In this document: piece after piece, positions 8,022-56,403 of the stretch
How positions within the stretch are numbered: the stretch's first letter is position 1
Layout: each line of letters opens with the position of its first letter
From: Acidobacteriaceae bacterium
GTDB lineage: Bacteria; Acidobacteriota; Terriglobia; Terriglobales; Acidobacteriaceae
DNA: 64,000 nucleotides
Direction: 5' to 3'
Assembly: GCA_003131315.1 (NCBI GenBank)
Contig: PKUV01000158.1
Span: forward strand, 24,468 to 88,467
Program-made: the position numbers and the translations under genes
The notes under the pieces: model-generated
What the model was told of the DNA's origin: nothing
What the model saw: the letters and a program-made list of their open reading frames with translations, nothing else
Database searches by the model: none

Positions 8022-8056
8022 GAAGTCAGAAGTAAGATTGCAGACTTCTGACTTCT
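8022..8056. repeat. 7-nt-unit palindromic array
   Basis: GAAGTCA GAAGTAA GATTGCA GACTTCT GACTTCT, beginning 5 nt after the M28 stop. Confidence 0.8.
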
Positions 8057-8170
8057 ATCGCCTTCCCTCCAGTTGACGCCCGATCTCTCTCGCGCTTACG
8101 ATACTTGTTCGACTTCACGTGGAATGGGGTCCCGTGAGGCGCGACTTCGGCTTCACGGCAGGCAGCGATC

Positions 8171-8536
8171 ATGGATAAGAAGAAACTAGAGACGTTCAAA
8201 AAAAGACTGGAAACCCGGCAGCAGGAACTGCGCCACATGGTTACCCGCAATCAGCAGGACGGTCGTACCGTTGACGATGAGGCCACTCAGGACGTCGCTG
8301 ACCGCGCCGCCAGTTCCTACAACAAGGAATTCCTTTTCAGCCAGACCAACAACGACCGCCAATTGCTCAACATGGTCGATAGCGCTCTCGCCCGCATCCG
8401 CGAAGGCAGCTTCGGAGAATGCGTCTCCTGCGGCAAAGAGATCAACGCCAAGCGCCTCGAAGCCGTGCCCTGGACTCGCCACTGCATCGCGTGCCAGGAA
8501 AAAGCCGAGAAGGGCCTGCTCGAAACCGCTCAATAA
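8171..8536 (+). CDS. DksA/TraR-type zinc-finger transcriptional regulator
   Basis: CxxC...CxxC zinc finger (GECVSCGKEINAKRLEAVPWTRHCIACQ) after an N-terminal coiled region. Confidence 0.85.
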   Translation: MDKKKLETFKKRLETRQQELRHMVTRNQQDGRTVDDEATQDVADRAASSYNKEFLFSQTNNDRQLLNMVDSALARIREGSFGECVSCGKEINAKRLEAVPWTRHCIACQEKAEKGLLETAQ

Positions 8537-8582
8537 AAGTTTGGCGCGGACACCCTTGTGTACAGTTCCGAGACATCCTAAC

Positions 8583-8762
8583 GTGTTCGACCACGCCGCT
8601 ACGCGCGCAGAGCAGGAGCGCGTCATCCAGGCATTGCGCGACAAGTGTGACATTCTTTGGGCGCAACTCGACGCGCTCTATTTCGCTTATGTCGAGCCGG
8701 GCTGGCCGCCGCCGGGCGCTTTCCGAATCGAGGCGAAACATAGTGAGGGGAATCGTGGCTGA
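8583..8762 (+). pseudogene. PqqC (TENA-like) C-terminal-like fragment, 59 aa
   Basis: VFDHAATRAEQERVIQALRDKCDILWAQLDALYFAYVEPGWPPPGAF resembles the PqqC C-terminal helix region; no full-length N-terminal part; overlaps the downstream pqqD-like start. Confidence 0.45.
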
Positions 8763-9030
8763 GCTTGTCGATGCGAGCGTTCCGAAGTTTGCGGCGGGAT
8801 ACCGCTGGGGCGGAACTACCGAAGCGCCGGTCGTGCTCTTCCCGGAAGGCGCGATCCGCGTGGAAGGAACGGGCCGTATCATCCTCGAACTCTGCGACGG
8901 CCATTTCTCGCTGGCCGAAATTGTGCAGAAGCTGGAAGCGCAGTTCATGCTGGCGCCGAAGGGCAAGATCCGCGCCGATGTCCAGGTATTTCTGGAGCAA
9001 CTGCACGCCAAGCGCATCATCGATTATTAA
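8755..9030 (+). CDS. PqqD-family small protein
   Basis: GTG start 8755; PKFAAGYRWGG..APVVLFPEGAIRVEGTGRIILELCDGHFSLAEIVQKL...VFLEQLHAKRII has PqqD (winged-helix chaperone) features. Confidence 0.7.
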   Translation: MAELVDASVPKFAAGYRWGGTTEAPVVLFPEGAIRVEGTGRIILELCDGHFSLAEIVQKLEAQFMLAPKGKIRADVQVFLEQLHAKRIIDY

Positions 9031-9358
9031 AAGGCGACTATTAACAGGCCGCGGAAAAACTCGGGCTTCGCGGGCCAAACTGTAAACCATCTCCCCGTCC
9101 GTTTTGTAAAGTATGTCCCCGGTCTGTACCCCCTTGCACCACCTGGTCGAAGATGCGGTGCGCGAAGATGCCGTCCGTGAAGACGGAGCGACGGGATCTG
9201 CCCCGGAAGCACGCGAGGCTCCCTTTCACGTTCTGCAGGAGAAGATGGCCGGGTTCTGGAACTACCGGACGGATCCGAAGCGAGCGCTTTGACGCTCTCG
9301 AAATCGGCCTGTTAGACTGAAGAATTGTCAGCCTACCCTTAAGCGAAGAAGGAAGCCC

Positions 9359-10087
9359 GTGCGCGCAGAAACCCGGCATCAACTGAAACAAGACCGCTTC
9401 AGCAAGATCACGATCGAGGCAGCGGAGAAGACCGTCCACTGGAGCGCGGAGCACCAGTCGAAACTCATTGCCGCTGCGATTGCGGTTGTCGTCATCGGAG
9501 CGATCGCATTTGGCGGCTGGTACTACGTCAACTCGCAGGACGAAAAGGCGAGCGCCGAGCTTTCGACGGCGGTCCGCACCTTTGAAACGCCGGTGCGTCC
9601 GGCAGGCGTGCCAGCGCAACCGGGGTTCGAGAGCTTCGCGTCGCCGCAGGAACGCGGCACCGCAGCGCGCAAACAGTTCCAGGCCATCGTCGATAAGTAT
9701 CCGCACACCCACACTGCCGACATGGCGCGCTATTTTGTGGGATTGGCCTCGGCACAGCTTGGCGATAACACGGCAGCGGAGCGCAGTCTGCAGGAGGCGG
9801 CCGGCTCTTCGAACGCCGATCTTGCGGCATTGGGCAAGTTCGCGCTGGCTTCCGTTTATCGCGCGGAGAATAAGGACACGCAGGCGGTCGATCTTTATAA
9901 GCAGTTGATCGATAAGCCTACGCTCGTCGTCAGCAAGGCGACGGCGCAGCTCGAACTCGCCGGGTTCTACGAGTCGCGGCAGAAGCCAGACGAGGCCAAG
10001 AAGATTTACGATCAGGTGACGAAAGAAAATCCGGCCACCGAAGCAGCATCGCTGGCGCAGCGGCGAGCCACGGCTCTCAAACAGTAG
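9359..10087 (+). CDS. Membrane-anchored TPR protein (YfgM-like)
   Basis: N-terminal TM helix (KLIAAAIAVVVIGAIAFGGWYYV) followed by TPR-like repeats. Confidence 0.6.
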   Translation: MRAETRHQLKQDRFSKITIEAAEKTVHWSAEHQSKLIAAAIAVVVIGAIAFGGWYYVNSQDEKASAELSTAVRTFETPVRPAGVPAQPGFESFASPQERGTAARKQFQAIVDKYPHTHTADMARYFVGLASAQLGDNTAAERSLQEAAGSSNADLAALGKFALASVYRAENKDTQAVDLYKQLIDKPTLVVSKATAQLELAGFYESRQKPDEAKKIYDQVTKENPATEAASLAQRRATALKQ

Positions 10088-10090
10088 TTC

Positions 10091-11242
10091 TCAAGCAGTA
10101 GTTTTTGCAGCGGCGATGCGGCGCAGACATGCGATGAGCCGCTCGCAGTCCTCGGCCGTGTTGTAGACGTGTGGCGTCACGCGAATCGAACTTCCACGGA
10201 CGCTGACGAATACTTTCTCTCTCGCGAGCACTTCGGGAAGTTCCTTCGGAATCGCCCCTTTCCTCCGCAGGGCCAGGTAGTGAGGCGCGCGTAACGGTTC
10301 GGCGGGCGCGGAAAATCCCATGTCCGCCGCGGCGGTTGCCAGTTGACGATTGAGCGCGCCGGCCGTCTCGGAGATCTGCGCGACTTCCCACTCCAGCAAC
10401 TGCTTCATAGCGCGCACCGCGGCAGGCAGCAACGCGAAATTGGAGCGCTCGCCCATGTCGAAACGCCGCGCGCCCGCGTCGTAATTTTCCGTGTAGAGGA
10501 TGAGGCTGGCGAAATCGCGAGCGTTGGCGCGCTGAATCCAATTCTCTTCCAGCGGTATTCCGCCCTGCCATTTTGGAGCGACATAGAGAAGCCCGATGGA
10601 ATAGGGCCCGAGCAGCCATTTGTAGCTGGCGGCGACGGCAAAATCCGGCTGCACGTCGCGCACGCTGAAGGGTAACGCGCCGAGCGACTGGGTGAGATCG
10701 AGAACGAGCGCGGCGCCGATCTTGCGGCAAGCTTCGCCGATGCGGACGAGATCGAGTCTTCCGCCGCTGGTCCACTGCACGTGCGGGAGTGCGGCAATCG
10801 CCACATCGTCGGTGAGGGAATTCAGAACGGCGGCGGTCCAGTCGTGATCTTCCGGCCAGACGACGATTTTCAGCGAAGCGCCGGTTTCTTCCGCCAGACG
10901 CTGCCACGGATAGTAGTTGGACGGGAACTGCTCTGCGAGCACGAGAATACTCTGGCCTTTTTTGACCGGCAAATTTCGCGCGGCGGTCGCGATGCCGTAA
11001 CTGGCAGAGGGAACGATGGCGATGCAGTCGGCCGAGCAGTTGAGTAGCTGCGCGGCGGTCGTGCGGAACTCGTCTGAGCCCGCAAAAAATTTGTCGGGAG
11101 TCAGTTCCCACGGGTGCGCTTTGCGGGCAAGCCCCGCGGTTCCGGCTTCCAGTGCCGGCTTCATCAGCGGCGACATGTAGGCGCAGTTCAGGTAGGCGAC
11201 GTCGTCGGGGATCTCGAAGAGATGGCGCTGGCAGGGAAGCAT
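10091..11242 (-). CDS. Aminotransferase class V (PLP-dependent)
   Basis: AALPHVQWTSGGRLDL, LVLDLTQSLGALPF and ASYKWLLGPYSIG (PLP-lysine region). Confidence 0.8.
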   Translation of the reverse strand: MLPCQRHLFEIPDDVAYLNCAYMSPLMKPALEAGTAGLARKAHPWELTPDKFFAGSDEFRTTAAQLLNCSADCIAIVPSASYGIATAARNLPVKKGQSILVLAEQFPSNYYPWQRLAEETGASLKIVVWPEDHDWTAAVLNSLTDDVAIAALPHVQWTSGGRLDLVRIGEACRKIGAALVLDLTQSLGALPFSVRDVQPDFAVAASYKWLLGPYSIGLLYVAPKWQGGIPLEENWIQRANARDFASLILYTENYDAGARRFDMGERSNFALLPAAVRAMKQLLEWEVAQISETAGALNRQLATAAADMGFSAPAEPLRAPHYLALRRKGAIPKELPEVLAREKVFVSVRGSSIRVTPHVYNTAEDCERLIACLRRIAAAKTTA

Positions 11243-11291
11243 GGGCTAGTCTGTGGCATTCAGTGTACCAATGCAGAAGGGATTGCCGGCA

Positions 11292-12458
11292 ATGAGTCGA
11301 GTAAAGATGGGTCGAGTGAAATTACAGGTTGCGTTCATCTTGTTGTCAGGTCTGCTGGCAGGTAGTGCGGCGGCGCAGACTGGCGGCGCCGCGAGCGCCA
11401 AAGCCTCGCTGGCTTTTGCGCGGGCTGAAAAATTGAGGCGGGGAATCAACGCCAGTGAGTGGTTCGCGCAGGTGTATGACAAGCGCGGCTACACGCCGGA
11501 ACATTTTCAGGCCTGGACGACCGCCGAGGACATCGCGCTGATCAAGTCGATGGGCTTCGATCACGTGCGGTTGAGCGTGAATCCGCAGCCGATGTTTACG
11601 GCGCGCGAGCCCAATAAGATTCCGACGGAGTATCTGGGCTCTCTGGATGCGGCGGTGAAGATGATCCTCGACCACGGGCTGGCGGTTGTAATCGACCTGC
11701 ATCCGGAGAGCGACTTCAAGGCGCGGCTGGCGAAGGACGACGAGTTTGTCGAGCAGTTCGCCGATTTCTGGCGAGCGCTGGCCGAACATTACTCGACGTG
11801 GGACGCGGACCGAGTGTTTCTGGAAATTCTGAATGAGCCGGAGTTCACGGACCGCTATCGGTGGCTGGGTGTGCAAGTGAAGTTGGCGGCAGCGATCCGG
11901 GAGGGCGCGCCTGCTCACACGATCATAGCGGCGGGCGCGCGCTGGTCGGACGACGATGACCTCGTTTTTCAGGAGCCGCTGCACGATCCGAATGTCATCT
12001 ACAACTTTCATTTCTATGAGCCGCACATCTTCACGCATCAGGGCGCAACTTGGAGCGCGTATTACTGGCACTTCCTGCGCGGCTTGAGGTATCCGTCAAG
12101 TCCGGATTCGGCGGAGCGCGTGGCGGCGCTGGTGCCGGATGAAGTCGACCGGCTGCAGGTGATCCGCTATGGGCGCGATCACTGGGATGCGGCCCGCATT
12201 GAATCCGAAATGAAGCAAGCGGCGGAGTGGGCGCGGCGTCGCGGGGTTCCGCTGGTGTGCAACGAATTTGGCGTGTATCGGGAGTATTCCAATCCCGAGG
12301 ACTGGGCGGCGTGGCTGCACGATGTGCGGACGGCGCTCGATCGCAACGGAATTGGGTGGGCGATGTGGGACTACTCGGGATCGTTTGGCGTGGTCACGAA
12401 GAAAGATGGGAAGGCGGTGGCGGATGAGGGGGTGCTGCGGGCGCTGGGGATGAAGTGA
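11292..12458 (+). CDS. Glycoside hydrolase family 5 (cellulase-like), secreted
   Basis: RGINASEWF...GFDHVRLSV, VFLEILNEPEF (acid/base Glu), VCNEFGVYRE (nucleophile region); signal peptide. Start chosen near ATG 11292. Confidence 0.8.
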   Translation: MSRVKMGRVKLQVAFILLSGLLAGSAAAQTGGAASAKASLAFARAEKLRRGINASEWFAQVYDKRGYTPEHFQAWTTAEDIALIKSMGFDHVRLSVNPQPMFTAREPNKIPTEYLGSLDAAVKMILDHGLAVVIDLHPESDFKARLAKDDEFVEQFADFWRALAEHYSTWDADRVFLEILNEPEFTDRYRWLGVQVKLAAAIREGAPAHTIIAAGARWSDDDDLVFQEPLHDPNVIYNFHFYEPHIFTHQGATWSAYYWHFLRGLRYPSSPDSAERVAALVPDEVDRLQVIRYGRDHWDAARIESEMKQAAEWARRRGVPLVCNEFGVYREYSNPEDWAAWLHDVRTALDRNGIGWAMWDYSGSFGVVTKKDGKAVADEGVLRALGMK

Positions 12459-12612
12459 GACCTCACCTACCGAAGGCGAACCGACCTAATTCATCCCCGA
12501 GCTTCTTGACCTCGTCGGGGTCTTTTGAGGAGCGGAAGCGTTCATTACGGTGTAGCAGGATAAGGGCAGCCCAGTCTGGCACTGGTTCAGTTTGAAAGTA
12601 GGAACTAGGCGC

Positions 12613-13206
12613 TCATTCAGCCAGTTGGTCTTTGAGTAGTCCGGCAAGATAATCCGCCAGCACGGAAACATCAAAGTGGCCCTGATCCCAGGCCCTATCG
12701 GCGGCTTGCAACGCAGCATAATATGGCTTTCGATTTTCTCTGATCCGTTCGGGCACAATTTTCTTTCCCGGCAGCAATCGTCCCTGCTTCAAGCAAATCA
12801 GGTAATAGCAGGCGGCCCTTGCAGTTCTTCCATTGCCTTCGACGAATGGGTGAATCCAATTGAGCCTCCACAGCGCATATGCCGGAAGTACGGTTGGATG
12901 GTCCAGAATTGCCCAGTTTTCGTGGACGACAGAAAAAAACCGATCCATCTGATTAGGAACGTCGTCAAAGTGGGGAGGAAAGTGATTCCCCACATAGATC
13001 GGCTCCTCGCGGTAACGTCCCCCAAACTGGGAAATGTTCGAGACAGCCGCATAATTTAGAGCCCACAGAGTGTATTTATCGAAGAATTCGATGCCCTTTT
13101 TTAAGCCAATTTCAATGCAGTTAGACAACAAGTCATACTGCCGCAAGAGATTTTGCTCTTGGATTTTTGCATAAAGCTCGGGATCGTCTTTTTCTCGAAC
13201 GGACAC
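12613..13206 (-). CDS. Fic-family protein (AMPylation domain)
   Basis: HPFVEGNGRTAR matches HPFx[DE]GNGRxxR. Confidence 0.9.
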   Translation of the reverse strand: MSVREKDDPELYAKIQEQNLLRQYDLLSNCIEIGLKKGIEFFDKYTLWALNYAAVSNISQFGGRYREEPIYVGNHFPPHFDDVPNQMDRFFSVVHENWAILDHPTVLPAYALWRLNWIHPFVEGNGRTARAACYYLICLKQGRLLPGKKIVPERIRENRKPYYAALQAADRAWDQGHFDVSVLADYLAGLLKDQLAE

Positions 13207-13243
13207 AGAAATGGGGGCCTGGGGGCCTGAAATCAGACTCCAT

Positions 13244-14366: not shown

Positions 14367-14387
14367 GACGGAGTCCTCCTGCAAAAG

Positions 14388-14438
14388 TTCTGTAGGAGTT
14401 ATCAGCCGAAGGGCGGTTAACGGCGAACTCCATCGCCA
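14388..14438 (-). ncRNA. Fluoride riboswitch (crcB motif)
   Basis: Minus strand: GGCGATGGAGTTCGCC-GTTAA-CCGCCCTTCGGCTGATAACTCCTACAG, matching the crcB-motif core (GGCGAUGGnGUUCGCC ... CUCCUAC) directly upstream of crcB. Confidence 0.92.
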
Positions 14439-14511
14439 GTGCATCAGTATAGCGCAGAGGCCGAGCCATAGCGGAGATGACTGCGGTGCGAATTTGGATT
14501 CGAGGATCCGG

Positions 14512-15801: not shown

Positions 15802-15895
15802 TTGATCGGGTGATCGGGTCATCAGGCCATCGGGTGATCTGAGTTGCAAATGCTCTGTCTTTGAATTTCGATCATCCGATGGCCCGATGACCCGA
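15802..15895. repeat. 8-nt-unit palindromic array (ATCGGGTG type)
   Basis: GATCGGGT GATCGGGT CATCAGGC CATCGGGT GATC ... CGATCATCCGATGGCCCGATGACCCGATC, starting right after the queD stop. Confidence 0.85.
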
Positions 15896-16591: not shown

Positions 16592-16628
16592 CTTGATGCC
16601 TGGCGAATTCGCTACGTAAGTTTGAGTT

Positions 16629-16706
16629 GTCATCCTGAGCGAAGCGAAGGACCTATGTATTTAACCGCGCCGCAATGCATAGGTCCTTCGCTTCGCTCAG
16701 GATGAC
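16629..16706. repeat. Inverted repeat, GTCATCCTGAGCGAAGCGAAGGACCTATG type
   Basis: About 30-bp arms with an ~18-nt loop; related copy at 63662. Confidence 0.9.
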
Positions 16707-16749
16707 AGTATGTATTTATGCTGCGAATTAAATAGCGGACTGCACAGGG

Positions 16750-19375: not shown

Positions 19376-19618
19376 GAATTCCTCCTTCAGGAACAGACAA
19401 ATTTGCGTGTATCCAGCGCATGATAACGCACTACGCTGTGGAAAAGTAGCATTTTATGCAGATTTAATGCGGTTCCCAGTAAGGTACCCCCTTGAAACTC
19501 GGCATAAAATGGGGGTCTGGCAGCCGAAGAGTGCCAAAATGGCCCAGTTCGCGGAGAAAATGTGTTGTTTGCTCGAAGCCAATACTTTCGGAAGCCGCAA
19601 CTGAGAACTGGGAACTGA

Positions 19619-20158
19619 CTACGGATCGTACACTGCGGTGTGCATGCCGGCATGGCGCGCCGCATCCTGCATCTGGTCGAGCTTCCGCTTCTGCTCATCG
19701 AGTTGCAGCTGGATTTGCGCCACACGCTGCAGTTGCCGCGCCTGATGCCGGTTGGACGGTCCTTCGTATTGGACGCTTCCGTTCGCGGAACGAATCGACG
19801 CATTGAGCTGGTCGATCCGCGCCTGGAGGTTCGCCATCTTGTTTTCTTGCGCGAGGATCTGTCTCTTCCATTGCTCAGCCGCGCGTTGTTCCGCCAGGCG
19901 TTGCTGGGCGGAACGATAGTCAGCGGCCTCGCTGCTCGCCGCGCTCGCTTCTGACTGTGCCTCCGGCGGCGACTGGTTCGCGTCCGAATCCTTCGGAAGG
20001 TCCTTGTTCGTAATCACCTTCGGCTTCGCCGTGGCTGATGCATCGTTGGCGTTCTGCTTCTCCCAGTTCTCGCGTGCAACGTCGCCCAGCGACTGCCCAT
20101 AGGCGGCCGAAGTCGTCAACAGCGCGATTGCCGCAATCTTCAAGAACATTCGGTGCAT
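19619..20158 (-). CDS. Hypothetical periplasmic coiled-coil protein
   Basis: Signal peptide MHRMFLKIAAIALLTTSAAYGQ followed by Gln/Ala-rich helical region. Confidence 0.5.
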   Translation of the reverse strand: MHRMFLKIAAIALLTTSAAYGQSLGDVARENWEKQNANDASATAKPKVITNKDLPKDSDANQSPPEAQSEASAASSEAADYRSAQQRLAEQRAAEQWKRQILAQENKMANLQARIDQLNASIRSANGSVQYEGPSNRHQARQLQRVAQIQLQLDEQKRKLDQMQDAARHAGMHTAVYDP

Positions 20159-20274
20159 AAGCTTCTCCCACCCGCCCGTGCTGAACCGTTCTTTCAACTA
20201 CCAATGCTAACCCCGTTCGCTGCGATATGTTGCTAACCCATGTAACTCGTGCGCGAAACGAAAGTGCCACACCA

Positions 20275-21324: not shown

Positions 21325-22227
21325 ATGACAACTATTTGGAAATCCGGTGACCAGAAATCTGCTAACCAGGCAACTAACGACAACACAATCTCCGGGACGA
21401 CGCTTTCGTCCTGGTCGCGCCAGCAGAAGCTGGCTATGATCGCAGGCTTCGCGATTCTCGGGCTGTTACTCGCGGTGAGCGCGTGCTCGAAGCAATCGCC
21501 AAAACCGGCGCTGGTCAGCGTCTCCAGCCCGGCGTCGACTCCGGCAACGCCCGCGGCCGCGGCAACACCTGCAACCACCCCAACCGCCGCAGCCTCACCG
21601 GCACCCACCAAGAAGACGCCGAAGAAGCGCCCCGCGAACGTCACCTATAGCGATCCCAACTCCGGTGTTTCGTTCCTCTATCCGCGGAAGTTCGCGCTGA
21701 GTTCGGGCGACAAAGCGCTGCCCCAGCTCGCCGGCATGGATGATGTGCCGATGAACTTCGTCCAGCCCGGCGGAGTCGCGGTCGCGACGGTCGCACTGCC
21801 CGCCAGTTCGTATCCCGGCACCGACTTCGCATCCGCCTTCTTCAACGTGAACGTCAATCGCAGCGTCTCCGAGCAGGAGTGCGCGCACTTTGCCTTCGTC
21901 GACACGCGCAATGCCGACGGCGAGCCGGTCGACGCCGAAAAAGTTAAGATCGGCTCGACCGACATGGAGATGACTTCCGACTTCTCCGCCAGCGCCATGA
22001 AGCAGGCCGAAACGCAGTACTACCACAGCTACGAAAATGGAGCCTGCTACGAATACGTCCTGGGCTTGGGCACCGCCGGATACGGCGCCAAAGACGGCAT
22101 TGATCCCGTCAACCGCGACGAAGTCTTCGCCAAGCTGGAGAAGATCCTGGCCACGGTGAAGATCGGTCCAGTCGAGCGGGAGCAAGTAGCCGAAAAAGCA
22201 GCCACCAGCATCACCGGCGGCAAGTAA
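21325..22227 (+). CDS. Hypothetical membrane-anchored or lipoprotein-like protein with Pro/Ala/Thr-rich linker
   Basis: Hydrophobic segment LAMIAGFAILGLLLAVSACSK then TPATPAAAATPATTPTAAASPAPT linker. Confidence 0.55.
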   Translation: MTTIWKSGDQKSANQATNDNTISGTTLSSWSRQQKLAMIAGFAILGLLLAVSACSKQSPKPALVSVSSPASTPATPAAAATPATTPTAAASPAPTKKTPKKRPANVTYSDPNSGVSFLYPRKFALSSGDKALPQLAGMDDVPMNFVQPGGVAVATVALPASSYPGTDFASAFFNVNVNRSVSEQECAHFAFVDTRNADGEPVDAEKVKIGSTDMEMTSDFSASAMKQAETQYYHSYENGACYEYVLGLGTAGYGAKDGIDPVNRDEVFAKLEKILATVKIGPVEREQVAEKAATSITGGK

Positions 22228-22241: not shown

Positions 22242-22312
22242 GGCCATCGGGTGATCGGGATCATCGGGTGATCTTTGATGACCCGATCGCCCGATCACCC
22301 GATGACCCGATT
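22242..22312. repeat. 8-nt-unit palindromic array (ATCGGGTG type)
   Basis: GGCCATCGGGTGATCGGGATCATCGGGTGATCTTTGATGACCCGATCGCCCGATCACCCGATGACCCGAT. Confidence 0.85.
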
Positions 22313-23013: not shown

Positions 23014-23123
23014 GTCATCGGGGCATTGAATCATTGAGGCATTGAGTGATTGAATCATTGAGTCATTGAGTCATTGAAAACCCCCGAGTCGATTTTCAGT
23101 GATTCAATGCCTCAATGGCTCAG
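23014..23123. repeat. 8-nt-unit palindromic array (NNNATTGA type)
   Basis: GGCATTGA ATCATTGA GGCATTGA GTGATTGA ATCATTGA GTCATTGA GTCATTGA then inverted TGATTCAA TGCCTCAA TGGCTCAG. Confidence 0.9.
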
Positions 23124-23140: not shown

Positions 23141-24016
23141 GTGACCAATCGCGTCGCAAGGAACAAACTACAACTTTTGCGTTCCGAGAAGCTGGGCAGA
23201 CTGGCTTGGCTGGTGCATGCCTTCTCGACGCGGCTTGGCGGAGTGTCGCGCGGCTACGGCGGGAACGCACTGAATCTTGGGTTCACGAAGCAGGACTCGC
23301 GCGCGACCGTCGAGCGCAACCGCGAGCTTTTTCTCAAGGAACTGGGCGCGGCGAATGGACGCAGAAGCTGGACGCTGGTTTCGCTGCGGCAGATTCATTC
23401 TGATTTAATCCATCGAGTCGACCGCAAGCCGGAACAGCCTCTGGCAGGTGACGGGATGGTCACGGACACGCCGGGGCTGCTCTTGGCGGTGCAGACTGCC
23501 GATTGCCTTCCTATCATTCTGGTGGATCGTAAACGGCGGGCTGTCGGCGTTTTTCACGCAGGCTGGCGCGGCACGGTCAAGCGGATCGTCGAGAAAGGTG
23601 TCGGCGAGATGCGGAAACACTTCGGGAGCGATCCGCGGAACCTGGTGGCGGCAATTGGGCCGGGCGTGCAGGGGTGCTGTTACGAAGTGGGCGAAGAAGT
23701 GCGCACCAAGTTTGAAGCTCAGTTCGCTTATGCCAGCAGCTTGTTCCGCGAGGTGAAGGAATCGGATCCGGTGCGGGAGAAATATCCGATGCTGTTCCTG
23801 ACGGCGCGCGCGCCTGGACACAGCGAATTGCCGGTGAAACTTTTTCTCGATCTGGTAGAGGCGAACCGGCGACAACTGCTGGATGCGGGCCTGCTGGCGA
23901 AAAATATTGACACGGCGGCGCCGTGCACGGCGTGCCATACGGAGCTGCTTTTCAGCTTCCGGGCGGAGAAGGGCGTAACGGGGAGGCTGATGGGGGCGGC
24001 AGGAATAAATCATTGA
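23141..24016 (+). CDS. YfiH-family (polyphenol oxidase / purine nucleoside phosphorylase-like)
   Basis: FSTRLGGVSRG, QIHSDLIHRV, TADCLPIILVD, FHAGWRGT, CCYEVG; GTG start chosen after the repeat. Confidence 0.88.
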   Translation: MTNRVARNKLQLLRSEKLGRLAWLVHAFSTRLGGVSRGYGGNALNLGFTKQDSRATVERNRELFLKELGAANGRRSWTLVSLRQIHSDLIHRVDRKPEQPLAGDGMVTDTPGLLLAVQTADCLPIILVDRKRRAVGVFHAGWRGTVKRIVEKGVGEMRKHFGSDPRNLVAAIGPGVQGCCYEVGEEVRTKFEAQFAYASSLFREVKESDPVREKYPMLFLTARAPGHSELPVKLFLDLVEANRRQLLDAGLLAKNIDTAAPCTACHTELLFSFRAEKGVTGRLMGAAGINH

Positions 24017-24078
24017 GGTATTGAGGTATTGAGGTATTGAGCCAATGATTCAATGTCTCAATCCCTCAATGATTCAAT
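24009..24078. repeat. 8-nt-unit palindromic array (ATTGA type) overlapping the yfiH stop codon
   Basis: ATCATTGA GGTATTGA GGTATTGA GGTATTGA GCCA / ATGATTCA ATGTCTCA ATCCCTCA ATGATTCA. Confidence 0.9.
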
Positions 24079-24087: not shown

Positions 24088-24786
24088 TCACGCCAGGTCG
24101 AACAGTAGAACTTCAGCGTCTTCCGTTGCTTTGATCGTCAGCTTTTTTTCTTCGCTTATGGCCGCACCGTCTCCCTGGTGCAACTTCTGGCCGTTCAGCT
24201 CGACTTCGCCCTTAGCGACCTGGAGCCACGCGTGACGCTTGGCGCCGAGCGACTGCGTGACCTCTTCTCCGGGTGCAAGCAGAGTGACGAACAGCTTCGC
24301 GTCCTGATTGATCTTTACCGAACCCTCGGCGCCGTCGCTCGAGGCGATCAGGCGAAGCTTGCCGCGCTTTTCGACTTCCGGGAAGTTTTTCTGTTCGTAG
24401 CCGGGTTCGTGCCCTTGCTTGTCGGGGAGAATCCATATCTGCAGCAGATGCACGGATTCGGTCGGGGACGGATTCGCCTCGCTGTGGCGGATGCCACGTC
24501 CGGCGGTCATGCGCTGCCCGTCGCCCGGAAGGATCACTGAGCCTGTGCCGAGGCTGTCTTTGTGCTCGAGCTTACCTGACAGGACATAGGTGATGATCTC
24601 CATGTCGCGATGGGGATGAGTTGGAAAACCGCCGCTCGGCGCGACCCAATCTTCGTTGATCACGCGCAGCGAGCGGAACCCCATCCACTTGGGATCGGAG
24701 TAATCGTTGAAACTGAAAGTATGGCGGGTCTTCAGCCAGCCGTAGTCGCCGCCGCCACGCTCGTTGCTCGGTCGGATGGTCATCAT
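24088..24786 (-). CDS. Pirin-family protein
   Basis: TRHTFSFNDYSDPKWMGF, FPTHPHRDMEIITYVLSGKLEHKDSLG, GRGIRHSEAN. Confidence 0.92.
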   Translation of the reverse strand: MMTIRPSNERGGGDYGWLKTRHTFSFNDYSDPKWMGFRSLRVINEDWVAPSGGFPTHPHRDMEIITYVLSGKLEHKDSLGTGSVILPGDGQRMTAGRGIRHSEANPSPTESVHLLQIWILPDKQGHEPGYEQKNFPEVEKRGKLRLIASSDGAEGSVKINQDAKLFVTLLAPGEEVTQSLGAKRHAWLQVAKGEVELNGQKLHQGDGAAISEEKKLTIKATEDAEVLLFDLA

Positions 24787-24961
24787 GATGCTCGCTCCTG
24801 TTTAGTCGTTGTAACGACTATTTCAATTCGTTTAGATGTACGTCGAGCGGGAAGGATTCAGGGGGTGGAAACGCCGTTGGTCGTTAGTCGTTGGTCGTTC
24901 GCGGTTCGCGACGGCCATCAGCCCGTGGTGCAAGTACGGTTCGTATCAGGGCACGCCTTCA

Positions 24962-32105: not shown

Positions 32106-32378
32106 ATGAACGTTGACCCGGTGCGAGCCAGTTCGGCTGAGATTGAGCGTCAGACTCCCGAAAAAAAGGTGCAAGTTGCGCCTCCCCCACCCAGTGCCGC
32201 TTCGGGAAATACCCCAAAGACGGAAATTGCCAAGAGACAAAATGCTCCCGTTCCACTTTTAATCCCGGAACATGAAGTCAAAGTGCAGTTGGATACGCCA
32301 GAAGATGACATTATTGTTTACCAAGTCTTAGACAAGCAATCGGGTGCCCTGGTACAGACAGTTCCCAGTTCTCAGTAA
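32106..32378 (+). CDS. FlaG-like protein
   Basis: VKVQLDTPEDDIIVYQVLDKQSGALVQTVPS; located between fliC and fliD. Confidence 0.7.
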   Translation: MNVDPVRASSAEIERQTPEKKVQVAPPPPSAASGNTPKTEIAKRQNAPVPLLIPEHEVKVQLDTPEDDIIVYQVLDKQSGALVQTVPSSQ

Positions 32379-32438
32379 GTCTTCGATAATGCGAACTGGG
32401 CCTAACTGAGAACTGGGAACTGAGAACTGGGAACTGAT
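32359..32438. repeat. 7-nt-unit palindromic array (AACTGRG type) overlapping the flaG-like 3' end
   Basis: CAGTTCC CAGTTCT CAGTAAG / AACTGGG ... AACTGAG AACTGGG AACTGAG AACTGGG AACTGAT. Confidence 0.88.
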
Positions 32439-34389: not shown

Positions 34390-34745
34390 TGCCGCCGGAC
34401 GCGCTCGAAACCTTGCGGCAGGTGAATGACAATCTGCGTTCCGCACTGATTCGTCTCCGTCCGGAACGAAAGCACTGTTCGACCATCAGGCCCCAGGACT
34501 TCTCTGATTTACTCAGCCAGCTTCTGCGGGCAGCGGAATGTCTGCGGCGCCTGCCGGCACATTCCGAAGCAGCCGTGGCGCTCGAAAAGGAATCACTCGA
34601 ATACCGCAGCAACCTGGAAAAGCTGAAGCATTTCCTGCCTGACGTGCACGGGCGCCTGCTGGCCGAGAAGTCGCGGCTTGAAACTGCGAAAAACCACGTA
34701 GCAGCCGCAACGGCTTGGGCGCGAGCCAGCAAGAAGACGCTTTGA
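34389..34745 (+). CDS. Small helical protein, possible FliT/FlgN-like chaperone
   Basis: Overlaps the fliS stop; helical, Leu/Glu-rich; operon position. Confidence 0.45.
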   Translation: MPPDALETLRQVNDNLRSALIRLRPERKHCSTIRPQDFSDLLSQLLRAAECLRRLPAHSEAAVALEKESLEYRSNLEKLKHFLPDVHGRLLAEKSRLETAKNHVAAATAWARASKKTL

Positions 34746-34793
34746 GGCATTGAGCTATTAAATCATTGAGCGATTGAATTCAATGACTCAATG
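34745..34793. repeat. 8-nt-unit palindromic array (ATTGA type) at convergent fliT-like/flgL junction
   Basis: GGCATTGA GCTATTAA ATCATTGA GCGATTGA ATTCAATG ACTCAATG. Confidence 0.88.
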
Positions 34794-47133: not shown

Positions 47134-48681
47134 ATGCGGGAACACGCCCTCCCCCGGCAACGGACAACAACGGACATTAGTGGGTATTACAGGATGGGCG
47201 ATACTCCCGCACGCCAGATAACCGACTACCGCCTTGATTCTTGGAAGGAGATCGCTGCCTTCTTCGGACGCGACGAGCGTACCGTTCGCCGCTGGGAGAA
47301 GGAGCGAGGCCTGCCCGCCCATCGTGTTCCAGGTGGGGAGCGTGGAGGTGTGTTTGCCTACACCGCTGAACTGAGGCAGTGGCTCAAAGGACGAGCTAAC
47401 GAATTGGAGGCCGCCGAATCCGAAACCATTCGGGCAGTTGCCGAGAGTGCAGTTGCCGAGAGTGAACAGATCGAGGGCGTGCCCGCATCCGAGCCTTCGA
47501 AAAGCGCGGCTGTCCTTGCCCAGGTTCTCGATCTACGACCTGCTCCCGCCCCACCCAAAACGTCGTTTGCCCGGATTGTGGTTTGGCTTGCGCCATTAGT
47601 GGTGGTCGCCGGTTTGATCGCCGTGCTTTCGTTCAGCCATCGCGAGACGCGCTACAAGAATGCACTGGCCGCACCGCACTCACCCAATGCCGAGGCGCAG
47701 GAGCTTTATCTTAAAGGCGAGTATCACTGGACCAAGCGCACACCCGAAGATCTCAATAAAGCGGTCGATTACTTTACGCAGTCGATCGTGAAAGATCCCA
47801 GATACGCCCAGGCCTACGTGGGGCTAGCCAACTGCTATAACCTGCTGCGCGAATTCAGCGTCATGCCTGCGGATGAGGCCTATCCCCGGGCGCTGGCAGC
47901 TGCCCAGAAGGCCGTCGAACTCGACGACACCTCCGCGGGAGCTCACAATTCCCTGGCGTTTGCCACCTTCTACTGGAACTGGGACCCGGTGACTGCCGAA
48001 CGCGAACACAAACGGGCGCTGGAACTGGATCGGAACTTCGTACAGGGGCACCACTGGTATGCGACATTCCTGCTGACTTCCGGACGCTTTCCCGAAGCTC
48101 TGGACCAAATCGAGCAGGCTCGCAAGCTCGATCCCTCATCCACTACGATCCAGGCTGACAAGGGTTGGATTCTCTTCAATGCCGGTCGAAAGAGCGAAGC
48201 TTTCGCGCTTCTCAAGCAACTGGAATCAACCGATCCTGCTCTGGCGACGACGCACGGTTACCTGGCTGCGATCTACCTCGACCGCAAGGACTATGAGAAC
48301 TTCTTGGCCGAATCAAAACAGTCGGCGCAACTGCGCCACGATGAAGCAGCTTTGGCCGTGGCCAACGCCGCCGAGCGAGGTTTCGCCGCCGGCGGGTTAG
48401 ACGGCATGCGGGAAAACATGCTTCCCGTGCAAAAAGAGAGCTTCGACCGCAGTTTGGGATCTGCCTATGATGTGGCTGCCACCTGCGCCTCGCTGGGCAA
48501 GAAGGAAGAAGCGCTGCGCTACTTGCAGGCGGCCTACGAGAAGCGGGAGACAGGCTTGCTGTATCTGAGCCGAGACCCTGCTTTCAACATCCTGCACGAC
48601 GATTTGGTGTACAAGGAAATCACCGAGCGGGTCGGGGAAAAATTGGGGAGAACTATTGAGTCATTGAATTCAATGATTTAA
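47134..48681 (+). CDS. HTH-TM-TPR regulator-like protein
   Basis: LDSWKEIAAFFGRDERTVRRWEKERGLPAHRVPGGERGGVFAY (HTH), TM IVVWLAPLVVVAGLIAVLSF, TPRs. Confidence 0.8.
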   Translation: MREHALPRQRTTTDISGYYRMGDTPARQITDYRLDSWKEIAAFFGRDERTVRRWEKERGLPAHRVPGGERGGVFAYTAELRQWLKGRANELEAAESETIRAVAESAVAESEQIEGVPASEPSKSAAVLAQVLDLRPAPAPPKTSFARIVVWLAPLVVVAGLIAVLSFSHRETRYKNALAAPHSPNAEAQELYLKGEYHWTKRTPEDLNKAVDYFTQSIVKDPRYAQAYVGLANCYNLLREFSVMPADEAYPRALAAAQKAVELDDTSAGAHNSLAFATFYWNWDPVTAEREHKRALELDRNFVQGHHWYATFLLTSGRFPEALDQIEQARKLDPSSTTIQADKGWILFNAGRKSEAFALLKQLESTDPALATTHGYLAAIYLDRKDYENFLAESKQSAQLRHDEAALAVANAAERGFAAGGLDGMRENMLPVQKESFDRSLGSAYDVAATCASLGKKEEALRYLQAAYEKRETGLLYLSRDPAFNILHDDLVYKEITERVGEKLGRTIESLNSMI

Positions 48682-48699
48682 TGCCTCAATGGCTCAATT
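48650..48699. repeat. 8-nt-unit palindromic array (ATTGA type) encoding the C-terminus of the TPR regulator
   Basis: ACTATTGA GTCATTGA ATTCAATG ATTTAATG CCTCAATG GCTCAATT; ORF ends ESLNSMI* within the array. Confidence 0.88.
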
Positions 48700-51177: not shown

Positions 51178-51363
51178 CTACGACTTCTCTTCGACCTCTA
51201 TGACTTCGCGGCCCTTGTAGGTTCCGCACTTCGGGCACGCGCGGTGTGGCATCTTCTGCTCATGGCAGTTCGGACACTCCGACAGCGAGTGCTTCGAGAG
51301 CGAGTCATGCGCGCGCCGGGTGGCGGTGCGCTTCTGGGAATGTCTGCGTTTCGGATTCGGCAT
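51178..51363 (-). CDS. rpmF: 50S ribosomal protein L32
   Basis: MPNPKRRHSQKRTATRRAHDSL...CPNCHEQKMPHRACPKCGTYKGREV. Confidence 0.95.
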   Translation of the reverse strand: MPNPKRRHSQKRTATRRAHDSLSKHSLSECPNCHEQKMPHRACPKCGTYKGREVIEVEEKS

Positions 51364-51376
51364 GATGATTCCTTTT

Positions 51377-51453
51377 CAGTTGCCAGTTGCCAGTTCTCAG
51401 TTCTCAGTCAACCACGCTCTACTGATAACTGAGAACTAGGAACCGAGAACTCG
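51377..51453. repeat. 7-nt-unit palindromic array (AACTGRG type)
   Basis: CAGTTGC CAGTTGC CAGTTCT CAGTTCT CAGT / ACTGATAACTGAGAACTAGGAACCGAGAACTCG; lies directly 3' of the DUF177 gene stop. Confidence 0.85.
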
Positions 51454-51456
51454 TCT

Positions 51457-52029
51457 TTACTGCTCCAGCTTATCGCGTATTTCTTTCAGCGCCGACCACC
51501 GCGGGTCCTCGACCTCGTCCACGCACGAGCACTGAATTTCATTCAAGTTCTTGCCGCAATGCGGACACAAGCCTTTGCAGTCTTCGCGGCAAACCGTCTT
51601 CAACGGGAGCGCCAGCAGCACCTGCTCGCGCAGCGTATCTTCCAGCAACAACCCTTCGCCCTGGTAGTACCCGATCTCGGCCTCGGCGTCGGTGACCGAA
51701 AGCTCTTCGTGTCCGGCGTCGGTTCCGAGCGGCCGGTACAGAAGATCGAAGCTGCGCTCCACCTGGTGCACGACCGGATCGAGACAGCGCGCGCAAGCCA
51801 CTTCCAGGCTCGTCTCCAGCTTGCCCTTCAGCCGGATGTCCTGCACCACCTTGTGCTTGCCGTGATGCTCCTCGACTAGATCCGCCCGGCCCTCGCTGCG
51901 CAGCGGCGACCGCTGCCGGACCTCCGTACCCAGATCAATCACACCCGGGCTGAACTCCTCCCGGAAATCGACCGGGTGAATCTCCAGATCCTCAATTTCG
52001 ATGAGCATTGGAACCTCCGCCGCCCCCAC
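51457..52029 (-). CDS. DUF177 (YceD-like) protein
   Basis: LEVACARCLDPVVHQVERSFDLLYRP...CREDCKGLCPHCGKNLNE; upstream of rpmF. Confidence 0.9.
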   Translation of the reverse strand: MGAAEVPMLIEIEDLEIHPVDFREEFSPGVIDLGTEVRQRSPLRSEGRADLVEEHHGKHKVVQDIRLKGKLETSLEVACARCLDPVVHQVERSFDLLYRPLGTDAGHEELSVTDAEAEIGYYQGEGLLLEDTLREQVLLALPLKTVCREDCKGLCPHCGKNLNEIQCSCVDEVEDPRWSALKEIRDKLEQ

Positions 52030-52138
52030 TCAAATTACCGCAAAGGCCCGCGGAAGTGCGCACAGAGACGAAAGTCTCTCAGGGAGCAATAACTAAGAAT
52101 AAAGGGCCAAAAACTAGGTGTCAAGGAAGTGTACTCGC

Positions 52139-52282
52139 TTCGCCTATGTGACGAACACTAACGGCGACAATATTTCCACCTACAGCATCCACCAGACGAC
52201 GGGTGCGCTGACGCCGCAGGGGCCGAACGTGCCCGCGGGAGAGGGACCTTATCACATCGTGATTTTTGGCTCTCTCCTGTGA
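52139..52282 (+). pseudogene. YVTN/beta-propeller (lactonase-like) C-terminal fragment
   Basis: Translation FAYVTNTNGDNISTYSIHQTTGALTPQGPNVPAGEGPYHIVIFGSLL* with no upstream propeller. Confidence 0.75.
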
Positions 52283-52529
52283 TGGCCGGGCTTCGTGAAT
52301 GCGGGGTTGTATGGGTCATCGGTCAAACCAGGTTGGGTGAACCCTCGCTTGCGTTCAGCTTTCGTGAATTGCCTCGCCGAAATCTTCGTTCGAGCGCGGG
52401 TCGAGCAACCGCAGCTGCAGCCCTCTGTCACAAACGGAGCGTGATGGGTATCACCTCAGGGCGACTGCTTCTCGCGGCAACATGATCGCATAGAAAAACT
52501 CAGGTCGTGAAATCATGTGAGGTTTGTCC

Positions 52530-53522
52530 GTGGCGATCCTGGTGTTGGGCGGAGCAGGCTACATCGGCAGTCATGCGGCGCGCGCGCTGCGGCGTTCCGG
52601 TTATGAGGTCGTGCTTTATGACAATCTCTCAACCGGGTTTCGTCGCCTGGCGCAAGGCTTCGAACTTGTGGAGGGCGACATCGCCGACGAAGCCAAGCTC
52701 CGGCCCGTGCTCGCGCGCGTGGACGCCGTGATGCACTTTGCCGCCCACGCCTACGTTGGAGAGTCGGTCGAGAACCCGCGCAAGTATTTCCGAAACAACG
52801 TTTTAGGCGCGCTCAGCCTGCTGAACTCCGCGCTGGACGCCGGTATCCGCCGCTTCGTGTTTTCGTCCACTTGTGCCGTGTACGGCATCCCCGAGCAAAT
52901 TCCGATCACCGAGCAGACGCCGCGCGAGCCGGTCAACCCCTATGGAGCTTCGAAGCTTTTTTTCGAAAACGCGCTCGAGGCTTACGGCCGTTCTTACGGA
53001 CTACGCTCGGTGAGTCTGCGCTATTTCAACGCTGCGGGAGCCGCCGAAAGCGGCGAGATTGGCGAGCTCCACGACCCGGAAACTCACCTGATTCCACTGG
53101 CGCTTGCCGCCTCCACCGAAAACGGACCCGAGTTGCAAGTCTACGGGTCCGACTACCCGACTCCGGACGGCACCTGCCTTCGCGACTACATTCACGTGAA
53201 CGATCTCGCCGATGCGCACGTCCGAGGGTTGCAATACCTCGAAAGGGGCGGCGGCGAAAAAGGCGACGATTCGCTGGCCGTCAATCTGGGAACAGGCCGG
53301 GGACATTCCGTTCTCGAAGTCATCCATGCAGCGGAAAACGCCACTGGACGGCCGGTTCGGCGAAAGATCGGACTGCGGCGGCCGGGCGATCCTCCGGTTC
53401 TGGTGGCCGATTCGGCAAAGGCTCAAAGAGTTCTGGGATGGACCGCCAAGCGCAATCTCGCCGACATCGTGTCAAGCGCGTGGACGTGGATGCAAGAAAA
53501 TCGTGTAAGGCACGCGGCTTAG
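52530..53522 (+). CDS. galE: UDP-glucose 4-epimerase
   Basis: [42 protein letters not shown]. Confidence 0.92.
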
Positions 53523-53800
53523 GCGAATTCCAGGCGCTTTAGCTTGATCCGGTCGGCGCGGACGTGTGCAAGATCGTAGTGCGCCTGTTGCACCAGCCAG
53601 CTCGCGGCGCTGCCTCCGAAGACCATGGACAGCCTCACGGCCATTTCAGTGGAAATGCCGCGCTTCTCGTTCACCAGTTCCGACAGGGTAGTGCGCGTGA
53701 CTCCAAGCGCGGCTGCGGCGTCCGTTATGGTCAGGCCCAAAGGCTCAATACACTGGCGCAGCACAAAGCCGCCGGGGTGCGGTGGATTCTTCATCGGCAT
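53519..53800 (-). CDS. higA: HigA-like antitoxin (XRE HTH)
   Basis: [51 protein letters not shown]. Confidence 0.92.
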
Positions 53801-53815
53801 GGGTTCAGTCTCCTT

Positions 53816-54094
53816 TCAGTGGTAATCGGCGTAATCAACATCCAGCGCGTCGCCATCGGCAAAACGGAAGATCACCCGCCAGTTGGCGCGAACCGTCACC
53901 GCCCAAGAGCCCTTTAACTCGCCCCTGAGCGGATGCAGCCGAAACCCCGGCAAGTCCATATCCGCGACCGTACCGGCGGCACCGAGCCGAGCGAGAATGT
54001 CACGCAGCTTTACCGCGTGTTCCCTAATCACGCCGCGCCGGTCGTCGTCCTCGTAAAGGCGCTTCAATTCCTTGTGGCGTATCGACCGGATCAT
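53816..54094 (-). CDS. higB: HigB-like RelE-fold toxin
   Basis: MIRSIRHKELKRLYEDDDRRGV...FRLHPLRGELKGSWAVTVRANWRVIFRF...VDYADYH. Confidence 0.93.
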   Translation of the reverse strand: MIRSIRHKELKRLYEDDDRRGVIREHAVKLRDILARLGAAGTVADMDLPGFRLHPLRGELKGSWAVTVRANWRVIFRFADGDALDVDYADYH

Positions 54095-54194
54095 CCTGTA
54101 CCGTAACGCGTCACGTAACGGATGTCAAGAGAACCCTCGCGCCGGACATTCCTCCAGTTGTAAATCCCGACTTGTTTCACGTACTCTGCCGCGC

Positions 54195-56309
54195 ATGGGA
54201 ATTCGAACTCTGTCCGCGTTGTCATGCGTCGTATTGTTGCTGTGTTCCTCTTCGTTGCTCTGTTCCGCGCAGACGACGCCTCACGCCTTCTCGCTGGAAC
54301 AGGTGATGAGTTCGCCATTTCCAACGAATCTTGTGGCCGCCGACCATGCCGGACGCATCGCATGGGTGTTTTCGACCAGAGGCGAGCGCAACGTGTGGAT
54401 CGCGGACGCTCCGAATTTTGAGGCCCGGCAGGTCACGCACTACGTGGGCGACGACGGCATGCCGATTGCCGCGCTGAAGCTGACGCCCGACGGACGGGCC
54501 GTCGTCTACGCGCGGGGCAGTGAGGCCAATAGTGCTGGAGAAATCGCCGACCCGACCAGCAACGTCGAAAAACGCGTGCAGCAGGTCTGGGCGGTGGATG
54601 TGGACAAGGGCGAGCCGCGTTTGCTCGGCGACATGGGCTGCGAGGAGGAGGGATGCGAAGACATCCAGATATCGCCGAGCGGCGAGTTCGCGGTGTGGTC
54701 GGCGAAGAAGAATATCTGGATCGCGCCGATTTCCGGCAAGAGCGACGCCAAGGCCAAAGCGCTCGCCTTCGTGCGCGGCAGCAGCGCGCAGCCGAAGTGG
54801 TCGCCCGACGGAAAGAAGATTGCGTTCGTCAGCGATCGCGGCGATCACAGCTTTGTCGTCATTTACGAATTTGGCCGCAACACGCTGCGCTACGTCTCGC
54901 CCAGTGCTGACCGCGATCTGTATCCGCGCTGGTCGCCGGATGGGAGCCAGCTCGCCTTCGTGCGGCTGGTGGGCAAGCGGATGAAGCAGCCCCTGATTCC
55001 GCAGTCGCCGCTGCCGTGGGCGATCTGGGTTTATGACGTAGCAAACGATTCCGGGCGGGAGATATGGAAGAGTGGTCTGGGCTTGGATGACTCGCTGCCG
55101 CTGCTAACCGAAGATGAGTCGTTTCAATTTGCCGCAAAGAATCGCATCGTTTTTTCTTCCGAACAAGACGGATGGAACCATCTCTATTCGGTGGCGACAA
55201 ACGGCGGGCCCGCCACGCTGCTGACTCCAGGAAAATTTGAGACCGAAGATGTCGCGCTGAGTTCCGACAAGACCTCCGTCATCTACTCCTCCAACCAGGA
55301 TGACGTTGACCGCCGCCATCTGTGGCGCGTCGGCGTTGAAGGCGGAACACCGGAGGCGCTTACTCGCGGCGAGACGATGGAGTGGACGCCGCTCGAAATC
55401 GCGGGGAAGGTAGTGTGCCTGGGTTCGACGGCCACGACGCCGGCGATGCCGTACGTCGTCGCATCGCAGGGACGCGGGCACGAACGCGAAATGATCGCAA
55501 AAGACCCGCTGCCAGCGGACTTCCCCTCGGCCCAGCTAGTCACACCGAAACAGGTAATCTTCAAAGCCGCGGACGGGTGGGAGATCCACGGGCAATTGTT
55601 CGAGCCGAAGCAAAGTGGGCCGCGCCCGGCGTTGATCTTTATTCACGGTGGATCGATCCGGCAAATGATGCTCGGCTTCCATTACATGGACTACTACCAC
55701 AATGCTTACGCGATGAATCAGTATCTGGCGAACCGTGGGTATGTGGTGCTGTCGGTCAACTATCGGACGGGCATTATGTACGGCCGGCACTTTCGCGAAC
55801 CGAAAGATGGAGGCCCTCGCGGCGGCGCCGAGTACAAGGATATTGTGGCGGCAGGAAAATATTTGCAGCCCTTGCCGAATGTGGATGCGAAGAGAATCGG
55901 GCTGTGGGGCGGATCCTACGGTGGCTACCTCACCGCGATGGGGCTGGCGCATGACTCCGATCTGTTTGCCGCCGGAGTCGATTTGCACGGCGTGCATGAC
56001 TGGTCGGTGTTCAAGGAAGAAATCCCGGCGGATGCGCCCGATCACGACGACGCCGTCAAGCTGGCGTTTCAGTCGTCACCAAATGCGGCGATCACAACCT
56101 GGAGATCGCCGGTGCTGCTCATCCAGGGAGACGACGACCGCAATGTCGATTTCTCGCAGACGGTCGATCTGTTGCAGCGCTTGCGCGGTCAAAAAGTGCA
56201 TGTCGAGGAACTGATCTTCCCCGATGAGATTCATGGGTTCCTGATGTGGAAGAGCTGGATCCGGGCCTACAGCGCGACGGAGGAGTTCTTTGGCAGGGAG
56301 CTGAAGTGA
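54195..56309 (+). CDS. S9-family prolyl oligopeptidase-like serine peptidase, secreted
   Basis: Beta-propeller WSPDGKKIAFVSDRG repeats; GLWGGSYGGYLT nucleophile; signal peptide. Start moved to ATG 54195. Confidence 0.9.
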   Translation: MGIRTLSALSCVVLLLCSSSLLCSAQTTPHAFSLEQVMSSPFPTNLVAADHAGRIAWVFSTRGERNVWIADAPNFEARQVTHYVGDDGMPIAALKLTPDGRAVVYARGSEANSAGEIADPTSNVEKRVQQVWAVDVDKGEPRLLGDMGCEEEGCEDIQISPSGEFAVWSAKKNIWIAPISGKSDAKAKALAFVRGSSAQPKWSPDGKKIAFVSDRGDHSFVVIYEFGRNTLRYVSPSADRDLYPRWSPDGSQLAFVRLVGKRMKQPLIPQSPLPWAIWVYDVANDSGREIWKSGLGLDDSLPLLTEDESFQFAAKNRIVFSSEQDGWNHLYSVATNGGPATLLTPGKFETEDVALSSDKTSVIYSSNQDDVDRRHLWRVGVEGGTPEALTRGETMEWTPLEIAGKVVCLGSTATTPAMPYVVASQGRGHEREMIAKDPLPADFPSAQLVTPKQVIFKAADGWEIHGQLFEPKQSGPRPALIFIHGGSIRQMMLGFHYMDYYHNAYAMNQYLANRGYVVLSVNYRTGIMYGRHFREPKDGGPRGGAEYKDIVAAGKYLQPLPNVDAKRIGLWGGSYGGYLTAMGLAHDSDLFAAGVDLHGVHDWSVFKEEIPADAPDHDDAVKLAFQSSPNAAITTWRSPVLLIQGDDDRNVDFSQTVDLLQRLRGQKVHVEELIFPDEIHGFLMWKSWIRAYSATEEFFGRELK

Positions 56310-56311
56310 GC

Positions 56312-56403
56312 TAATTTGTAATTGGTGATTTGTAATTTGCAATTTATGAACAGAACGCCGGGCCCTTTCAAATTACCAATTACAAATTGCCAATTACAAA
56401 TTC
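56312..56403. repeat. 7-nt-unit palindromic array (TTTGTAA type) overlapping the HIT gene 3' end
   Basis: TAATTTG TAATTGG TGATTTG TAATTTG CAATTTA / AAATTAC CAATTAC AAATTGC CAATTAC AAATT. Confidence 0.9.

Follow-up and report, generated by a model that had tools for sequence, protein, structure and literature searches.

A class of palindromic arrays, each built of tandem 7- or 8-nt units followed by inverted copies of those units, was analyzed in a 64,000-nt stretch of DNA (the window) that covers positions 24,468 to 88,467 of contig PKUV01000158.1 (assembly GCA_003131315.1). The host is a soil bacterium of the phylum Acidobacteriota, order Terriglobales, with a genome of 6.0 Mb in 194 contigs. 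One protein encoded in the window has counterparts of up to 90% identity in metagenome-assembled genomes labeled Acidobacteriaceae, Terriglobales, and Sulfotelmatobacter. The class itself, its fixed orientation, its anchoring at stop codons, and the turnover of its unit families at gene ends are well supported by the observations described below. An earlier note on the window had reported 11 palindromes and one single arm; its list holds 10 palindromes, all of which exist, as does the lone arm, and at every listed palindrome the sequence consists of units followed by their inverted copies. An independent inverted-repeat scan (score of at least 13) recovered eight of the 10, and those at 34745 and 48650 have shorter arms that score under this threshold. 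Profiles of the unit families found one or both arms at all listed loci, together with one further lone arm. The loci are as follows.

8022-8056: short palindrome of the GAAGTCA type, 6 nt past the stop (8016) of a peptidase M28 gene
15802-15895: TCATCGGG-family palindrome, directly 3' of a PTPS gene (stop 15800)
19597-19622, minus strand: lone right-type arm of the TCAGTTC family (AACTGAG on the plus strand), by the stop of the minus-strand gene 19619-20197
22242-22312: TCATCGGG-family palindrome, 3' of a gene ending at 22227
23014-23123: TCATTGAG-family palindrome, immediately 3' of a YceI-like gene (stop 23013)
24009-24078: TCATTGAG-family palindrome between convergent genes, containing the stop (24016) of the YfiH/Cu-oxidase_4 gene
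24869-24909, plus strand: lone left-type arm of the TTGGTCG family, upstream of a pirin-like gene (absent from the earlier list)
32359-32438: TCAGTTC-family palindrome containing the end of a 90-aa frame (32106-32378), with the next gene start 24 nt downstream
34745-34793: short TCATTGAG-family palindrome between convergent genes (stops 34745 and 34802)
48650-48699: short TCATTGAG-family palindrome containing the stop (48681) of a TPR-protein gene
51377-51453: TCAGTTC-family palindrome, just past the stop of a minus-strand YceD gene (51457-52029)
56312-56403: GTAATTT-family palindrome between convergent genes (stop 56309; HIT gene stop 56380)

The frames reported to end inside arrays were read correctly, with C-termini ...GINH, ...VPSSQ, ...ESLNSMI, and ...FVIGNL before their stop codons. 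Pfam assigned three of the frames ending at arrays to Cu-oxidase_4/YfiH, TPR, and HIT; the FlaG-like label of the 90-aa frame comes from the earlier note only.

Genome-wide class and architecture

Inverted repeats were counted in two samples of the host genome. In 1.16 Mb there were 137, compared with 2 in an order-1 Markov shuffle, and in 1.80 Mb there were 274, compared with 26 in an order-2 Markov shuffle; this excess excludes chance as an explanation. The 1.80 Mb, to which the counts below refer, was sampled as stretches taken partly from contigs known to carry arrays, and the resulting density of about 58-73 arrays per Mb is therefore approximate. Palindromes with periodic arms numbered 107, and 105 of these had a period of 7 (68) or 8 (37), the remaining two having periods of 6 and 9. 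Clustering of the units gave 21 clusters, and profiles were built for 11 families, which found 132 palindromes; the genome holds at least 11 unit families. A 400-kb sample from a second genus (G118) contained 19 arrays of period 7 or 8, and three 50-kb stretches of Escherichia coli K-12 (150 kb) contained nine inverted repeats, none of them periodic. The scan bears out the proposal that a single class with a constant layout and many unit sequences is present.

Arms have a median length of 41-42 nt, loops have a median length of 13 nt, and the median predicted RNA fold of the arrays is -45 kcal/mol. Orientation is fixed. Within every one of the 21 clusters the left arm lies on the same strand, with no cluster in the opposite orientation, and same-family neighboring arms no more than 90 bp apart were found 132 times in the order left then right and never in the reverse order. 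The 10 pairs readable in other genera, as counted from listings, agree with this orientation (p=0.002). In 22 of the 68 period-7 arrays, the left arm contains two TYAG words 7 nt apart; none has CTRA there.

The two arms of a palindrome do not resemble each other more than arms of separate loci do. At variable unit positions, left and right arms of the same palindrome matched at 0.689 and arms of different loci of the same family at 0.679 (permutation p=0.07; p=0.15 under a second scoring). Since the arms are unmatched at these positions, recent copying of one arm from the other is not indicated. Neither the terminal-hairpin generator suggested earlier, which would copy one arm into the other, nor inverted duplication by fold-back was borne out. 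A few perfect palindromes do occur (for example C147:17556 and C17:35798), for which some copying or a recent birth is possible. Word sharing between the loops of different loci does not exceed that seen with shuffled loops. An all-frame stop cassette was also considered and rejected: right-arm units contain a stop in 7 of the 11 families by strict consensus (8 of 11 if the TAA of TTAGCTC is counted), and the TTCGCTG and TTGGTCG units have none in either arm.

Anchoring and turnover at gene ends

Genes were called with a simple home-made gene caller, which predicted 1405 genes (81% coding). Arrays lay between codirectional, convergent, and divergent genes in 78, 11, and 10 cases, respectively, compared with 61, 16, and 27 expected. 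Codirectional arrays begin a median of 5 nt past the upstream stop and end a median of 26 nt before the next start. The claim that the arrays are anchored on stop codons holds genome-wide: the distance to the upstream stop is at most 12 nt for 59 of the 78 codirectional arrays, compared with 33.7 expected under uniform placement in the same gaps, and 61 of 75 untied cases are closer to the stop than to the start (p=4e-8). Among 23 arrays in gaps with at least 80 nt left over, 13 lie within 15 nt of the stop and two within 15 nt of the start, the expectation being 2.3 for each. In G118, 12 of 14 codirectional arrays are nearer to the upstream stop (median 4.5 nt). After subtraction of the array, the gaps have a median length of 27 nt, as against 112 nt for codirectional gaps that carry no array; with gaps this short, and with start codons as predicted, many arrays possibly lie inside operons.

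Comparison with sister genomes revealed gain, loss, and replacement of arrays at the same gene ends. The orthologous end in a sister species may have an array of another family, an ordinary hairpin, or no element at all, and more than one of the 11 families was found at six of nine tabulated sites (S1, S2, S5, S7, S8, and S10). Arrays of GTAATTT, TTCGCTG, and TTAGAGG units alternate with other periodic hairpins at S1, TCATTGAG with TTGGTCG at S5, TCATTGAG with TCATCGGG at S7, TCAGTTC with TCAGGTC at S8, and TTGGTCG, TCAGTTC, and TTAGCTC types at S10. Orthologous sites carrying none of the 11 families had a hairpin in 13 of 28 cases (46%) compared with 74 of 311 control gaps (24%; p=0.013), a small comparison in which the sites were chosen because the species of the window has an array there.

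The sites of the window follow the same pattern. At 34745, the TCATTGAG family also occurs in L131 and L122, and L127 and L129 have no array. The 22242 site is occupied in L131, L122, and L121 by a GGCCACGC..GCGTGGCC hairpin, which is followed by a T run in L122. At 15802 and 23014, the arms have switched between TCATCGGG and TCATTGAG around a loop that stayed homologous and that is inverted in four of six comparisons: L192 has TCATTGAG arms around a homologous, flipped loop at the former site; at the latter, L131, L122, L121, and L126 have TCATCGGG-type arms, and their loop is homologous in each and flipped in three. Contrary to the earlier note, the unit families are not all unrelated, as TCATCGGG and TCATTGAG interconvert in place with the loop kept. 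Loops were homologous in all eight same-family ortholog pairs tested, and swaps between unrelated families mostly left no loop homology.

Between orthologs, core unit positions diverged more slowly (14.6%) than variable positions (31.8%) and loops (39%), figures that are approximate because repeats were aligned and that rest on core and variable labels taken from one sequence only. At S6, a well-sampled set of orthologs, unit variants follow largely the same order in different species, and the proposal that ongoing slippage maintains the arms was not borne out. The frequent change of element family at one gene end between sister species suggests that the form and position of an element count for more than its sequence.

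In some relatives the arms enclose longer inserts. At the site orthologous to 56312, L253 and L255 have the same two arms separated by approximately 0.5 and 0.8 kb, respectively, with reading frames in the inserts; that of L255 can encode a 226-aa protein. A similar arrangement in L257 is less fully traced, and its right arm was not recovered in a second scan. Loops may be insertion points. At site S7 (C98:63510-63997), the array and another arm of its family flank a short gene, whose product resembles, by eye, the proteins of 23S rRNA intervening sequences. GC-rich hairpin repeats lie between the arms at S6 in L288 (G204) and at S8 in L342 (G218). Genes bracketed by split arms are not the rule, given that only two same-family pairs were found at spacings of 301-3000 bp in the 1.80 Mb of the host genome, with no excess.

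Possible function and origin of the arrays

The best-supported mechanism, advanced here tentatively on the basis of position, structure, and re-use of sites, is that the arrays act as stop-codon-anchored 3'-end hairpin elements resembling repetitive extragenic palindromic (REP) sequences. Transcription of the upstream gene would run into the element at its 3' end, in many cases within a tight codirectional gene pair, and the transcript would fold into a strong hairpin lacking a U-tract. This hairpin could mark and protect the 3' end of the upstream mRNA as a barrier to 3'-5' exonucleases, with a possible influence on polarity, in the way proposed for REP sequences. What would be retained is the presence of a hairpin at that place, so that unit families, and even ordinary GC-rich hairpins, could replace one another. 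The arms would change by two routes, either unit by unit in place, as from TCATCGGG to TCATTGAG, with the loop kept and sometimes inverted, or by replacement of the whole element. A role in intrinsic termination, which the earlier note had also considered, is unlikely: a run of at least four T follows the 3' arm in 9% of arrays, compared with 14% of other hairpins, and the U-tract of a Rho-independent terminator is accordingly rare.

Several observations weigh against protection of mRNA 3' ends. Although divergent gaps are depleted in arrays, 10 of them hold one, and convergent gaps, with 11 arrays, are not enriched. Part of the stop anchoring may come from avoidance of the ribosome-binding sites and promoters of the next gene, whose start codons were predicted by the home-made caller. 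Wobble mismatches show no strand bias (56 sense, 45 antisense), and variable positions do not match from arm to arm, so that base-pair covariation gives no support for selection on RNA pairing.

A DNA- or RNA-binding protein that recognizes the conserved core of the units on the two arms, with the hairpin secondary, is possible but unlikely. Such a protein would account for a conserved core beside variable positions that are free and unmatched between arms, and for an orientation fixed in every family of the host and in the pairs from other genera, which pairing alone does not need. At least 11 unrelated families would nevertheless call for as many binders or for one very tolerant binder, and unrelated families and plain hairpins swap at one site.

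It is slightly less probable that the arrays are mutational by-products, formed by slippage of 7- and 8-mers and by exchange or template switching between inverted arms, and tolerated just past stop codons. In-place conversion with a kept loop and loop flips were both observed, arrays avoid divergent promoter regions, and a preference for 7-nt repeats is described as general in repeat-rich bacteria in passages of PMC4679880 (citing Mrazek et al. 2007) and PMC4692102. These processes do not explain one fixed orientation per family, and they sit poorly with arms that are not copies of each other, with the kept order of unit variants at S6, and with a core that diverges at half the rate of the variable positions.

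Mobile palindromes like REP sequences or miniature inverted-repeat transposable elements (MITEs), which would have entered as complete elements behind stop codons and decayed since, are an improbable source. The families are dispersed, multi-copy, and patchy among genera (ATTGA arrays in 32 of 200 genomes of the order, AACTGRG in 15 of 297 of the phylum), copying of a palindrome would yield a fixed orientation, and families with unrelated loops replace each other at one site. Copy-and-paste of whole elements was rejected on the loops, which are no more alike between loci than shuffled ones and are still recognizable between orthologs. That the arrays do not form one REP or MITE family, as the earlier note held, is supported by the Y1 transposase genes: none of 10 checked was framed by arrays, and all 10 (of 11 Y1_Tnp matches) were framed by non-periodic, mostly GC-rich inverted repeats, with an array approximately 1 kb away at one of them. 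Membership in the classic REP/RAYT elements was rejected on these 10 genes. The inspected arrays share no GTAG/CGTC end of the kind that marks 20-40 bp REP sequences, and have arms of approximately 40 nt made of 7/8-nt units. The host genome has REP-type hairpins as well, as a set separate from the arrays. No plasmid record matched the TAACTGA repeats or the 56312 array.

The following observations were made on other repeats and RNAs. Hairpins framing the Y1 transposase genes (L221-L230) are GC-rich, for example GGGTGCCCCACTCATTCGC, and similar hairpins occur at some array sites in sister species. Two copies of a non-periodic inverted repeat, TGTCATCCTGAGCGAAGCGAAGGA, lie in the window at 16628-16707 and 63661-63738; it appears to be a conventional REP-type family, separate from the arrays. 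An Rfam scan of the window found only a fluoride riboswitch (14386-14446, minus strand) and an Acido-Lenti-1 RNA (4744-4789, plus strand), neither of them at an array.

Slippage, arm-to-arm copying, and whole-element transposition all fail to explain independent arms combined with a fixed orientation. There is a small chance that the two arms are written independently by a directional, unit-specific process that draws on a family vocabulary, in fixed orientation and just after stop codons, with several vocabularies competing for the same gene ends. Telomerase-like addition, in which an enzyme adds templated units to both ends of a break before they are joined, would yield arms that are independent yet fixed in orientation, with random loops or inserts separating them, and a passage of PMC12632851 describes a bacterial reverse transcriptase, DRT10, that makes tandem-repeat DNA from RNA; it is nonetheless very improbable, since the single PF00078 reverse transcriptase match in the genome looks group II intron-like by eye and many units would need many templates.

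Relation to known repeats and significance

The closest counterparts are the heptamer arrays of Xanthomonas and Nostoc (PMC4692102), with units GGGAATC and GGGGA(C/T)T that have conserved and variable positions. Xanthomonas genomes carry 70-75 convergent inverted pairs each, always with one array on each strand and in fixed orientation. The heptamer arrays lie mostly between aligned genes and less often between divergent ones, overlap stop codons, and are close to the 5' gene (mean 28 nt compared with 160 nt); their length and sequence vary between species, they are transcribed in RNA-seq data, and no function was found for them (PMC4692102). The host arrays share the tandem units with a conserved core and variable positions, the convergent inverted pairs in one orientation, and the location near the upstream stop with depletion between divergent genes, the nearness to the stop being repeated in G118. 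Whereas those genomes each use one G-rich unit, read as a G-quadruplex former, the host has many families per genome that are mostly not G-rich (the consensus units GTAATTT, TCAGTTC, TTAGCTC, and TCATTGAG have no G-tracts), also uses 8-nt units, and replaces one family by another at a single gene end.

Other systems are alike in part. Cyanobacterial short tandemly repeated repetitive (STRR) heptamers are 7-bp repeats that lie between genes and can form hairpins, as here; one lies near a 3' end, and roles in termination or transcript stability were proposed (PMC2670836). The TAACTGA heptamers of marine Beggiatoaceae, which are intergenic, tandem, and in one main orientation, are one base away from the host right-arm unit GAACTGA, but occur predominantly as direct repeats (169 sets, one inverted) immediately 5' of start codons (PMC4679880). 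REP sequences and bacterial interspersed mosaic elements (BIMEs) with RAYT or TIRYT tyrosine transposases are likewise extragenic palindromes scattered close to the ends of genes, and stabilization or termination of mRNA was proposed as their role (PMC3733652); they differ in having non-periodic stems, often with the GTAG/CGTC ends mentioned above, and linked transposase genes. No description of such arrays in Acidobacteriota was found in the open-access texts searched.

The host arrays are a multi-family, non-G-rich form of a known but unexplained architecture. Earlier work on the Xanthomonas and Nostoc arrays treated them as G-quadruplexes and assigned them no function; the recurrence of their architecture in Acidobacteriota, with many G-poor units, shows that the shared property is the oriented inverted array after stop codons, and not the quadruplex. 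Independent writing of the arms, if true, would be a repeat-writing process new to bacteria, of which the heptamers of Xanthomonas, Nostoc, and Beggiatoaceae would be further cases. Sister species that carry different families at one gene end provide natural swaps with which to test whether the hairpin, the sequence, or neither matters in mRNA 3' ends.

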